36,247 nt of DNA from Dehalococcoidia bacterium (lineage in GTDB: Bacteria; Chloroflexota; Dehalococcoidia; WHTO01), in assembly GCA_009377665.1 (NCBI GenBank), contig WHTO01000009.1:1-36247 (forward strand). Reading direction: 5' to 3'. Below are positions 6,684-14,976 of the stretch, piece by piece (positions within the stretch are counted from its first letter, which is position 1; every line of letters begins with the position of its first letter). The notes beneath the pieces are model-generated. The model searched no databases. It was not told the origin of the DNA and was given only the letters and a program-made list of their open reading frames with translations. The position numbers were made by a program, and so were the translations under genes.

Positions 6684-8498
6684 ATGAACGCGGCAGGCTT
6701 CACGACGCCGTCCCCCTTGGGGAGGCTCTGGCGCGTCGACTGGCGCGCCCTTGGGTTGCCTCTGGCGCTTGGCTTCGTCCAGGTCGTCGGGACGACCTTC
6801 GCGGCGCAGGACCAGGCCGACCGCACGTCAATGGACGGGCTGGCGTATCTACTCCTGCTCGCCGGACCCGCTGCCCTGGTCGTCCGCCAGCGCTGGCCCG
6901 TGGCGGTGGTGTGGGCCGTCATCACAGCCACGCTGCTCTACCTGTTGCTCGAGTACCCTTACGGGCCGTTCGTCTTCAGCCCGGTCGTTGCGCTCTTTAC
7001 CGCGGTGACGGCCGGTCACCGCCTGGCCGCGTGGCTCAGCGCGGCCGCGCTGTACGGCGTCCACTTCGGCTACCGCCTCGCCTCCGGGGACGAGCCGGCG
7101 CCCACCTGGGAGCAGGCGCTCGGCGTCGCCGCCTGGCTCGTCCTGGTGCTGGTCGTCTCCGAGGTCGCACGGATCCGGGGCGAGCAGGCCGCTGAGGCCG
7201 CGCGGATTCAGCGCGAGGAGGAGCGTCGCCGGGCGAGCGAGGAGCGGCTGCGCATCGCCCGCGACCTGCACGACGTACTCGCCCACCACATCTCGTTGAT
7301 GAACGTGCAGGCGGGTGTCGCGCTGCACCTGATGGACCAGCGGCCGGAGCAGGCGCGCACGGCGCTGACCGCCATCGAGGAGGCCAGCCGGGAGGCCATC
7401 GGCGAGCTCCGTTCCGTGCTCAACATCCTGCAGGGACCCGACGAGCACGCGCCGCGCTCCCCCGCTCCGAGCGTCGCCAGGCTGGAGGGACTGGTCTCGC
7501 GTGCCCGGGCGGCCGGCCTCGACGTTCGCACCATGGTCGAGGGAGCGACCAGGACGCTTCCGTCGGCGGTCGACGCCGCCGCCTTCCGCGTGATCCAGGA
7601 GGCCCTGACCAACGTCGTCCGGCACGCCGGCGCCAGGACGGCGACCGTGCTCGTCTCGTACGGCGACGATTCCCTCACCGTCCAGGTCGATGACGACGGC
7701 GAGGGTGCGCGACGCACCAGGTCCGAGGGCGGGGGCAGCGGCATCCCTGGCATGCGCGAGGGAGCTCGATGCCGGCAGCCTGCCGGGCCGTGGCTTTCGC
7801 GTCCGCGCCCGGCTCCCGTACGAGGGCGGCCAGTGATTAGAGTCCTGCTCGCCGACGACCAGACCCTCGTCCGCGCCGGCTTCCGCGCCCTGCTCGACGC
7901 GGAGGACGATATCGAGGTCGTCGGCGAGGCCGGCAACGGCGAAGAGGCGGTCGCGCTCGTCGGCCGCTTGCAGCCGGACGTGGTGCTGATGGATATCCGC
8001 ATGCCGGGGCTGGACGGGCTGGTGGCCACCGAGCGGATCACTGGCGACGAAAAGCTGCGGGAGGTGAAGGTCGTTATCCTCACGACCTTCGACCTGGACG
8101 AGTACGTGTTCGAGGCGCTCCGCCTCGGCGCCAGCGGGTTCCTCGTCAAGGACACGAGGCCCGCCGAGCTCGTGCAGGCAGTGCGCGTCGTCGCCGGCGG
8201 CGACGCCCTCCTCTCGCCCGGCGTCACGCGCCGTCTGATCGAGCGCTTCGCCCACGGCGCCAAGCGCCCCCGCCTCCCGGCGGACGTCGAGAGGCTTACC
8301 GAGCGAGAGCGCGAGGTCGTGGCCCTCGTAGGCGAGGGCCTCTCGAACGAAGAGATCGCCGAGCGCCTCGTCCTAAGCCCGTGGACGGCCAAGACCCACG
8401 TGAGCCGCGCGATGATAAAGCTCGACGCCCGCGACCGCGCCCAGCTAGTCGTAGTAGCCTACGAGTCCGGCCTAATCCAACCCGGCTGGACCTCGTAG
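6684..8498 (+). CDS. Sensor histidine kinase fused in frame to NarL/LuxR response regulator (frameshift fusion)
   Basis: The 604-residue frame joins two proteins that are normally separate. Residues 1-165 carry about five membrane helices. A coiled region follows, then the HisKA_3 dimerisation motif RIARDLHDVLAHHISLMNV with the phosphorylated His, the N box EALTNVVRHA, and the G boxes DDDGEGA and GSGIPGMRE. After GMRE (to about 7760) the frame is wrong. The natural kinase tail (ELDAGSLPGRGFRVRARLP) reads in the +1 frame from 7762 and ends at TGA 7834-7836. A deletion of roughly 19-20 nt, inferred from family spacing, removed the segment after GMRE. It puts the kinase in frame with the regulator, whose own GTG is at 7833. 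The kinase lacks its last ATPase strands and may be inactive. The exporter operon is divergent, so it is the likely target. Confidence 0.85.
   Translation: MNAAGFTTPSPLGRLWRVDWRALGLPLALGFVQVVGTTFAAQDQADRTSMDGLAYLLLLAGPAALVVRQRWPVAVVWAVITATLLYLLLEYPYGPFVFSPVVALFTAVTAGHRLAAWLSAAALYGVHFGYRLASGDEPAPTWEQALGVAAWLVLVLVVSEVARIRGEQAAEAARIQREEERRRASEERLRIARDLHDVLAHHISLMNVQAGVALHLMDQRPEQARTALTAIEEASREAIGELRSVLNILQGPDEHAPRSPAPSVARLEGLVSRARAAGLDVRTMVEGATRTLPSAVDAAAFRVIQEALTNVVRHAGARTATVLVSYGDDSLTVQVDDDGEGARRTRSEGGGSGIPGMREGARCRQPAGPWLSRPRPAPVRGRPVIRVLLADDQTLVRAGFRALLDAEDDIEVVGEAGNGEEAVALVGRLQPDVVLMDIRMPGLDGLVATERITGDEKLREVKVVILTTFDLDEYVFEALRLGASGFLVKDTRPAELVQAVRVVAGGDALLSPGVTRRLIERFAHGAKRPRLPADVERLTEREREVVALVGEGLSNEEIAERLVLSPWTAKTHVSRAMIKLDARDRAQLVVVAYESGLIQPGWTS
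7833..8498 (+). CDS. NarL/LuxR-family response regulator (probable own start within the fused frame)
   Basis: Read from GTG 7833, this is a normal 221-residue regulator. The receiver domain has VIRVLLADDQ (acidic pair), VVLMDIRMPG with the phospho-accepting Asp, ILTTFD (switch Thr) and VKD (Lys). The C-terminal LuxR helix-turn-helix reads LTEREREVVALVGEGLSNEEIAERL, then KTHVSRAMIKL. The GTG overlaps the ancestral kinase stop as GTGA, the usual coupling in such pairs, so regulator made from its own start may still occur despite the upstream fusion. It likely controls the divergent ABC-2 exporter. Confidence 0.85.
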   Translation: MIRVLLADDQTLVRAGFRALLDAEDDIEVVGEAGNGEEAVALVGRLQPDVVLMDIRMPGLDGLVATERITGDEKLREVKVVILTTFDLDEYVFEALRLGASGFLVKDTRPAELVQAVRVVAGGDALLSPGVTRRLIERFAHGAKRPRLPADVERLTEREREVVALVGEGLSNEEIAERLVLSPWTAKTHVSRAMIKLDARDRAQLVVVAYESGLIQPGWTS

Positions 8499-8597: not shown

Positions 8598-9026
8598 TCA
8601 GGGCGCGAATGTGACCAACGCAAGATCCGGGACACTTTCGAAGTGTCGCCTGTTGTGAGTTGCCAAGGGTGCATCAAGAAGGCGGGCGGTAGCGGCGACC
8701 CAAGCGTCTCCCGCGCCCATTGTTTTCCCTGCCCGGCTCGTGCCGGCCATGATCTCTGCCCATTTACGGGCGAGAGCGATGGAGTACGGATAAACGATGA
8801 ACTGGCGCAGGTAATCCTCCAGGGGGTTGCGACGTTGGGAACTCCAGTTTCGCTGAGCCGCCCAGCGGAGTTGCTCCGCAACAGTCTGGAAGGAGGTAAC
8901 CAGCGTGCTTCCCGCCACGGCGCGACCATAATCGCTTCCTCTAGAATCCTTCTTCTGCCAGAAGGACAGCACGTCGGTGTCCACGACCACGACATTCGCA
9001 AGGCCGCCATGTGGTGGGGCTGTCAA
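8598..9026 (-). CDS. PIN-domain ribonuclease (VapC-like toxin)
   Basis: PIN-fold Mg-dependent RNase of the VapC type. The acidic active site is complete: Asp in VVVDTDVLSF, Glu in TVAEQL, Asp in GAGDAWVAATA, and an Asn in ATHNRRHF at the usual fourth position. At about 140 residues it has normal VapC length. The start is uncertain. A TTG at 9026 overlapping the upstream stop (TTGA) is used here; a GTG at 8990 would give the shortest typical PIN N-terminus, and a TTG lies at 9041. It is translationally coupled to the 298-residue gene before it, which sits where an antitoxin would be. Confidence 0.85.
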   Translation of the reverse strand: MTAPPHGGLANVVVVDTDVLSFWQKKDSRGSDYGRAVAGSTLVTSFQTVAEQLRWAAQRNWSSQRRNPLEDYLRQFIVYPYSIALARKWAEIMAGTSRAGKTMGAGDAWVAATARLLDAPLATHNRRHFESVPDLALVTFAP

Positions 9027-9919
9027 GTCTCCTGACGCCAAGCCTGCAGGGCGGCCAGAAATTCCTCCTCGTCATCCTCTTCCCAGAAGGCAGCCACGAG
9101 CGATGTCGGATCTTCCATCGTGCGGACAGGCTGTTCAGATGCCACCTCGGCCAGGGATTGCGAGTGCCAGAATTGATCGCTCACGGGAATGGGCAGCAAG
9201 GATTCCATCCTCACAGCCGCTGGTCGCCCGGATGGTGTGACATCTGCCGTCACCTCAACCGTGACGTGGTGTAGTCTCGCGGCATCAACTGCGTCTCGGT
9301 GATCGGCGTCAAATCGTATCCTGGTCATCCTTCCAAGCGGATCCCAGACCTCGGCTGTGCCGTCCCGGTAGTCGATTTCGAGTAACCGCCCACTTATGCG
9401 AACTCTCTTCGACAACCGCGCTACCTTAACCTCGGGGATCGCAGTAGCTTCTGCAGAAATGACTATCTGCCGTCGACTGGTACCGCCTTCCAGTATCAGA
9501 CGATCTTCTGTGCGGCTGATGCGACTTGCAACCGTGTCAATCTGACGCCTGGCCTCATCCGGGAGATCCGAGGAACGCCCCCCGATTTGCGCCTCCACTC
9601 CTGCTAACAGTCGGTCGATAGCCCGAGGCTGCACATCGAACATCTCTGACTGTGCCTTCGGGGGCCGCTCAAGTGTGAGAGTTGCTGTGAAGCTTCCGAC
9701 CTGGACGTCGCCGAGTCGAAGTGATGCCTGCTGCTGAATATCGCTTGGAACGGGCCCGCGCCTGTGGGCGCGGCCCCACAAGTCTTCCATTACAACCACC
9801 ATGGCGTTCTGGAGGCCGTCTAGGATCGCGACGAGGTCCGGAACGGGAACCCAACCACGTCCAATGTTGGGTCCTTCGAGCTTCACGCGAATACTGTGGG
9901 TGAGGTCGGGCGTACTCAC
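9023..9919 (-). CDS. Large partner of PIN toxin, candidate antitoxin, unknown family
   Basis: A 298-residue protein starting at GTG 9919, chosen because GAAGGAG lies 7 nt before it; an ATG-started extension to 10021 has no such site and reads like non-coding sequence. No catalytic motif is recognised. The N-terminal half is alpha/beta (PVPDLVAILDGLQNAMVVVM, then LRLGDVQVGSFTATLTLERP). The middle is strand-rich (RLSKRVRISGRLLEIDYRDG). The C-terminus is acidic (FWEEDDEEEFLAALQAWRQ), like the neutralising tails of some antitoxins. It overlaps or abuts the PIN gene. At nearly 300 residues it is three to four times the size of a normal VapB and has no visible DNA-binding motif, so the antitoxin role is a guess from context. 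Confidence 0.75.
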   Translation of the reverse strand: MSTPDLTHSIRVKLEGPNIGRGWVPVPDLVAILDGLQNAMVVVMEDLWGRAHRRGPVPSDIQQQASLRLGDVQVGSFTATLTLERPPKAQSEMFDVQPRAIDRLLAGVEAQIGGRSSDLPDEARRQIDTVASRISRTEDRLILEGGTSRRQIVISAEATAIPEVKVARLSKRVRISGRLLEIDYRDGTAEVWDPLGRMTRIRFDADHRDAVDAARLHHVTVEVTADVTPSGRPAAVRMESLLPIPVSDQFWHSQSLAEVASEQPVRTMEDPTSLVAAFWEEDDEEEFLAALQAWRQET

Positions 9920-10277
9920 GGCATCACTCCTTCTTCTGGTTTCGGCGGCGCTCACTCTCGTAGCAGCCCGACATTTCGGTCCCTGAGCCGAGAAACGACA
10001 GGGCCTGGCCAGCCAGTCCATATCCTACTTCCGCCACCGGCGCCGGGTATCCCGCGATACGACACCCATTGACGCACCGCGCCCCTAAGCTCACAAGCCG
10101 ACCGTCGACGAAAGGGCACGACGTGAGCACCAACAGGCCAATCCGCGCGTCACATAAGGGCAACTCAATCGCTGGCAGAACCGCCGATACTGCGTGACAT
10201 TCGGGAGCGAGCAAACAAACGAACAAAACGAACGAATGAATCGAACAGACGAACAAACGATGCACGAATCAGGCCCG
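9920..10277. other. Intergenic region, no gene seen
   Basis: This 358-bp stretch separates the PIN-partner gene from the MFS gene; both are on the minus strand. Frames through it are shadows with no start signals. It must hold the promoter of the PIN operon. Its only distinct feature is the AT-rich tract at 10207-10262. Confidence 0.6.
10207..10262. repeat. Low-complexity tract of GAACAAAC/GAACGAAT-like units
   Basis: About 56 bases made almost only of short imperfect units such as GCAAACAAAC, GAACAAAAC, GAACGAAT, GAACAGAC and GAACAAAC. The tract is much richer in A than its surroundings and has almost no T on this strand. It starts 15 bases after the MFS stop codon. Function unknown. Confidence 0.8.
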
Positions 10278-14806: not shown

Positions 14807-14880
14807 TGCCGAGTGGTGCAGCGGTAGCACAGGGGACTTTGAATCCTCTGACCCAGGTTCGAATCCTGGCTCGGCAGCCA
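14807..14880 (+). tRNA. tRNA-Gln (anticodon TTG)
   Basis: A complete cloverleaf: acceptor TGCCGAG/CTCGGCA, D arm GTGC-AGCGGTA-GCAC, anticodon stem GGGGA/TCCTC with loop CTTTGAA (anticodon TTG), T arm CCAGG-TTCGAAT-CCTGG, discriminator G and an encoded CCA. Confidence 0.97.
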
Positions 14881-14900
14881 CTTTCACAGTGGCCCTTCGC

Positions 14901-14976
14901 TCCTCGGTAGCTCAGTTGGTAGAGCGGGCGGCTGTTAACCGCTAGGTCGTAGGTTCGAGTCCTACCCGGGGAGCCA
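14901..14976 (+). tRNA. tRNA-Asn (anticodon GTT)
   Basis: Acceptor TCCTCGG pairs with CCGGGGA (one T-G pair). The D loop is AGTTGGTAGA, the anticodon stem GGCGG/CCGCT has loop CTGTTAA (anticodon GTT), and the T arm is GTAGG-TTCGAGT-CCTAC. A discriminator G and CCA are encoded. It lies 20 bases after tRNA-Gln and is likely co-transcribed with it. Confidence 0.97.

Follow-up and report, generated by a model that had tools for sequence, protein, structure and literature searches.

The window, that is, the whole stretch of 36,247 nucleotides that was analysed, contained two overlapping genes on its reverse strand, with the gene of a large partner protein first, in the antitoxin position, and the gene of a PIN protein second (Table 1). 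The same arrangement was kept in the homologues. Both open reading frames agreed with the first-pass annotation of this DNA, which had described an upstream partner with good start signals overlapping the PIN gene, and the length of the overlap depended on the start codon of the latter. The longest ORF of the PIN gene started at TTG 9041 and overlapped the partner gene by 19 nt, whereas the start at TTG 9026 gave a 4-nt overlap with the partner stop codon and an “MT” N-terminus. TTG 9026 is the likeliest start codon, since the homologues have ATGA overlaps and “MT” N-termini that correspond to its 4-nt TTGA overlap and “MT” start. No inverted repeat or palindrome was detected upstream of the pair at the settings used, and neither a promoter pair nor a terminator for the two genes was found at the locus. 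Elsewhere in the window, a histidine kinase and a NarL-type response regulator were joined in one ORF with an odd junction (6684-8498), which suggested a fusion, a deletion or a frameshift, and adjacent genes for tRNA-Gln and tRNA-Asn were located at 14807-14976.

Table 1. Features of the gene pair (window coordinates)
Feature	Position	Strand	Details and basis
Shine-Dalgarno sequence AAGGAG	9927..9932	-	7-nt spacing to the partner GTG; read from the sequence
Large partner gene (proposed antitoxin)	9023..9919	-	298 aa, GTG start at 9919; ORF and translation
N-terminal alpha/beta domain of the partner, residues ~8-85	9665..9898	-	Family alignment, model of the relative L071, low-confidence model of the window protein
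OB-like barrel of the partner, residues ~169-243	9191..9415	-	Predicted structures, Foldseek
Acidic tail of the partner, type A, proposed toxin-binding, residues 248-298	9026..9178	-	Profile of small-ORF tails
TTGA stop/start overlap of partner and PIN genes	9023..9026	-	Sequence; ATGA-type overlaps in homologues
PIN (VapC-like) toxin gene, putative	8598..9026	-	142 aa from TTG 9026; PF01850, VapC homologues, active-site alignment

The window PIN protein matched PF01850 above the cut-off (3.5e-10) as well as solved VapC proteins, with 6nkl_A as the top match (6.8e-7). Three acidic residues, D21, E56 and D112 (P0002 numbering), were invariant across 15 aligned PIN proteins, and the fourth active-site position was occupied by Asn, as it is in 6nkl_A. 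The earlier description of a VapC-like gene with a full active site thus stood for the three acidic residues and was slightly generous for the fourth position because of this Asn. Among the PADLOC models, none matched the window PIN protein at E<=1, and none matched the scanned PIN proteins of its relatives at E<=0.1.

Family and predicted fold of the partner

The partner had no match in NCBIfam and only a sub-cut-off match in Pfam (PF25507, OB_POT1A, 0.027), which lay on its tail and was rejected as noise. Whole-genome searches with the partner retrieved relatives at 36% identity and lower. Profile searches hit 25 of 400 sampled genomes from the same phylum and 39 of 393 (~10%) from the class of the window, both tallies taking in some loci with the tail alone or a partial body. 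In a contig collection, the profile further recovered relatives in Candidatus Dormiibacterota, another Chloroflexi bacterium and a Nitriliruptoraceae bacterium (Actinomycetota), in which L071, L073 and L074 were identical loci to three hits of the phylum sample, which suggests that the phylum of the window is Chloroflexota in the GTDB sense. In total, 43 distinct family loci were obtained by the profile searches. A scan of the contig collection with the single protein, tblastn searches in plasmids and phages, and scans of viral contigs yielded no relatives of the partner, so that mobility on plasmids or phages was unsupported. The family is unnamed in Pfam and NCBIfam, and no published description of it was found in the openly licensed papers searched. 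The annotation had called the partner a protein of unknown family, which held as far as these two libraries are concerned, and the profile searches that it proposed revealed an unnamed family.

Three parts make up the partner: at the N-terminus an alpha/beta domain, then an OB-like barrel, and at the end an acidic tail of ~50 residues. Because the model of the window partner itself was poor (mean pLDDT 48.8), the predicted structure of L071 (mean pLDDT 66) was used as a proxy for its fold; it contained the alpha/beta domain, connecting helices and strands, the barrel, and a C-terminal tail of low confidence. The elements of the N-terminal domain (a beta strand, a long helix and a beta-beta hairpin with a GS motif) and those of the barrel (predicted order beta-beta-beta-alpha-beta-beta) were ordered in the window model as in L071. 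An OB-like fold was predicted for the barrel, whose top Foldseek matches were OB domains, including proteasomal ATPase N-domains, IF1 and SilF, with a probability of up to 1.00 and a best E-value of 0.01. At one locus (L029, 1498-2322), a type B-like tail stretch came after each of the two OB-like barrels of the partner, and one PIN gene adjoined it.

Toxin genes beside the family and the tails of its members

The genes downstream of the long family members were read by hand from ORF lists, with no automatic rule, and each genome locus was counted once. This census covered 43 loci, of which 42 were readable (L047 runs off its contig) and from which weak class-sample matches with loci not fetched were left out. 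A PIN gene or its remains lay directly downstream in 37 of the 42 readable loci (41 from Chloroflexota and one actinobacterial), mostly with a 4-nt overlap or at a distance of up to ~15 nt. Where the PIN assignment was in doubt, the gene was compared with Pfam, and that of L054 fell below the cut-off because its ORF is short. Three loci with one or two barrels and without the N-terminal domain (L051, L064 and L029) were included in the 37, as were six broken or frameshifted PIN genes. By comparison, ten of these genomes gave 88 PIN matches in ~29.6 Mb, which corresponds to ~0.3% of genes if ~1 gene per kb is assumed. In G371, an assembly of one contig with 99% completeness, the sole PIN match was the neighbour of the partner. 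Family members were thus not widespread without a PIN neighbour, and the toxin-antitoxin reading of the annotation passed this check of co-occurrence.

At the six loci with broken or frameshifted PIN genes, L002 (G059), L045 (G506), L025 (G211), L031 (G252), L022 (G266) and L055 (G534), the partner was mostly intact. If the toxin is the first of the two to decay, this is the pattern to be expected, although the breaks may instead be assembly errors; some may be sequencing errors because several of the loci came from metagenome assemblies.

The five loci without PIN were L020, which had a RelE/ParE-type toxin, and L059, L006, L066 and L068; no toxin gene was recognisable at L059, L066 and L068, and none was present in the stretch read at L006. 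In L059 (1123-2259) and L006 (1033-2229), TPR-like repeats were fused to the partner body, and these fusions came second in another kind of two-gene unit, preceded by a small partner gene and lacking PIN. L066 (1474-2016), which was without a downstream PIN gene, is possibly a solitary antitoxin.

The C-terminal tail of the partner was also found in small ORFs that have no body. When the tails of seven such ORFs were made into a profile, it matched residues 248-297 of the window partner (E=1.9e-9), and the window tail scored 34.2 bits, compared with 8.9 bits for the best of 2000 shuffles. PIN was directly downstream in four of the seven small ORFs (L030, L035, L038 and L067), the one at L035 being divided between two frames; in L037 a PIN-like ORF of another subfamily was recognised by eye one ORF further on, and L032 and L034 showed no recognised PIN in the stretch examined. 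The acidic helical C-terminus, which had been described as being of the toxin-blocking kind, was confirmed, and it is homologous with the tails that these small antitoxin-like ORFs carry, several of which adjoin similar PIN genes. In the model of L071, the tail was the least confident part (pLDDT ~33-46, residues 241-290), which fits a tail that takes up its fold on its binding partner.

Three tail types were distinguished by eye in the long members linked to PIN. In addition to type A, the type of the window partner, type B read PFDV..FLN.PNPK.F... and type C read ...TGG...eYlr..R, the latter occurring with another PIN subfamily. A further tail was carried by L020, in which residues 269-299 resembled the RelN type (NF050107, 8e-6, below the cut-off) and the gene overlapped a RelE/ParE-type gene (PF06296, 7.5e-7, above the cut-off). 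The family very probably joins interchangeable tails, predicted to bind toxins, to a common two-domain body.

Our results also showed that tail similarity followed PIN similarity across 25 pairs (r=0.775), with a partial correlation of 0.574 given the scaffold (p=0.0002). The partial correlation of scaffold similarity with PIN similarity was 0.36, and by ranks the scaffold was the stronger of the two, with a partial r of 0.443 versus 0.306 for the tail. A link between tail and toxin was supported by these similarities, to which shared ancestry or contact between scaffold and toxin may have contributed as well.

A proposed toxin-antitoxin module and the role of the body

The pair is, in our judgement, a VapBC-like type II toxin-antitoxin module whose antitoxin neutralises through an exchangeable tail, and we hold this with good confidence. 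The toxin would be the PIN protein, which is probably a tRNA-cutting RNase like VapC, and the 298-aa protein would be the antitoxin, its last ~50 acidic helical residues binding and blocking the PIN protein like the tails of small antitoxins. The two-domain body would sit where ordinary antitoxins have a small DNA-binding domain, and its role would most likely be dimerising or regulatory, by binding operon DNA or RNA or by sensing a trigger. The order and overlap of the two genes, the repeated occurrence of PIN next to the family, the homology of the tail to small ORFs, tail exchange of the RelE/RelN kind and reuse of the body in the phage-defence candidate PDC-M32A were read from the sequences themselves, and we infer the toxicity of the PIN protein, its neutralisation by the partner and the role of the body. 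The toxin-antitoxin reading was favoured because PIN recurs as the neighbour and because small antitoxin-like ORFs have homologous tails; together with the correlation between tail and PIN, these results supported the unusual toxin-antitoxin arrangement that the annotation had put forward. Weighing against it were the absence of a classical DNA-binding domain from the window partner and of an inverted repeat upstream, the poor model of the window partner, the tracking of PIN similarity by the scaffold, and the five loci without PIN.

The proposed family comprises large multidomain antitoxins in which tails for PIN toxins and for toxins of the RelE type have been exchanged naturally. Since the family is homologous to a phage-defence candidate, it offers a single defined body on which one can test what toxin-antitoxin pairs sense. 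Programs that search for antitoxins on the assumption that they are small could overlook pairs of this sort. The VapBC-like kind is already known, and the body has no name in Pfam or NCBIfam.

The pair resembles VapBC in having the antitoxin first, a short overlap, a PIN protein that matches solved VapC proteins and an acidic C-terminal tail. It differs in its antitoxin, which at 298 aa is outside the small size usual for VapB, as the annotation had remarked, and which has an alpha/beta and OB-like body in place of a recognised DNA-binding domain. Likewise, the L020 tail and its RelE/ParE-type neighbour recall RelN-RelE, but NF050107 covers only 79 positions, the match was below the cut-off, and L020 adds a body of ~250 aa. 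Antitoxin-like genes beside PIN genes were also predicted by Makarova et al. 2009 (PMC2701414), and the families in the portion of that work drawn on here, COG2442 (~70-80 aa), COG2880, COG1753 and truncated MerR, have DNA-binding folds; no large OB-like family and none of this architecture was among those described in that portion.

Two refinements of the VapBC-like reading concern the body, and since both are compatible with it, the confidences given to the three overlap. According to the first, the body binds DNA as an autorepressor and stands in for the AbrB, RHH or Phd domains of an otherwise ordinary VapBC, to which we give somewhat less than an even chance. In L066, a MazE/AbrB DNA-binding domain (PF04014, above the cut-off) occupied the same position ahead of the barrel and a type B tail, and in L067 a zinc ribbon preceded the type A tail, both of which favour such a role. 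Against it stand the missing upstream palindrome and the absence of a recognised DNA-binding family match: in agreement with the annotation, which had recognised no DNA-binding motif, family scans detected none of the known classes of DNA-binding domain (AbrB, RHH, Phd or HTH) in the window partner or in the 14 members scanned.

According to the second refinement, the body is a Panacea-like hub that senses phage or damage, and the pair is a defence system of the abortive-infection kind, in which the trigger would bind the body and free the PIN toxin; we regard this as possible and rather unlikely. This idea was suggested in part by the body that the family has in common with PDC-M32A of PADLOC. 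The window partner matched PDC-M32A weakly (9.8e-5) and over residues 33-157 only, corresponding to positions 31-160 of the 375 in the model, and at E<=0.1 PDC-M32A models matched 7 of 14 family members, with a best value of 2.8e-7. L075 (G387:C76, 1474-2628) was a full-length PDC-M32A (433 bits), and its N-terminal body aligned to positions 4-246 of the family profile (54.7 bits), whereas its C-terminal module differed from the tail, predicted to bind PIN, of the window partner. The window pair itself is not PDC-M32 because no scanned PIN matched a PADLOC model, and PDC-M32 is only a candidate, which weakens the argument for sensing. The PDC-M32A match was suspected of being spurious, as the model also matched the unrelated-looking protein of G000:C6, and this suspicion was dropped since PDC-M32A combines two parts, the body at the N-terminus and the module of that protein at the C-terminus. 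PDLC04577, considered as PDC-M32B, proved to be another PDC-M32A model. The C-terminal module of PDC-M32A also stood alone beside TIGR04255-like genes in L079 and, in the genome of the window, in L010; these genes were so named from reading the sequence, with no library match.

Sensing was further suggested by three proteins among viral structures that matched nearly the full length (E=1e-8 to 1e-6), one of them annotated as DUF6575, a domain named in a validated anti-phage system of E. coli (PMC9519451). On the other side, the TM-scores of these matches were only 0.30-0.41, and no DUF6575 sequence match was found in family members; a further search was likewise blank, as were its controls. 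Panacea provides a precedent for multidomain antitoxins with a domain that does not neutralise and may act in sensing (PMC10440598), and PanA resembles the partner in its way of working, in which a common domain is combined with separate neutralising domains for different toxins (PMC10440598), but no Panacea family was present in the Pfam matches of the window partner or the family members. More broadly, the body with its several C-terminal modules (the three PIN-linked tails, the RelN-type tail and the PDC-M32A module) might be a general, Panacea-like sensor or hub of bacterial conflict systems that links the PIN pairs to uncharacterised anti-phage systems, a view that we consider less likely than not.

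The other alternative of the annotation, a PIN nuclease with a substrate adaptor, in which the barrel would deliver particular RNAs and the PIN protein would be a regulated RNase instead of a growth-stopping toxin, fits the OB-like fold, which often binds nucleic acids, and the PIN similarity that also tracks scaffold similarity, but it is very improbable in view of the homology of the tail to small antitoxin-like ORFs without a body, the RelE/ParE-type toxin that the body also adjoins and that would have no need of the same adaptor, and the loci L060 and L061, which lack the barrel and keep the tail and PIN.
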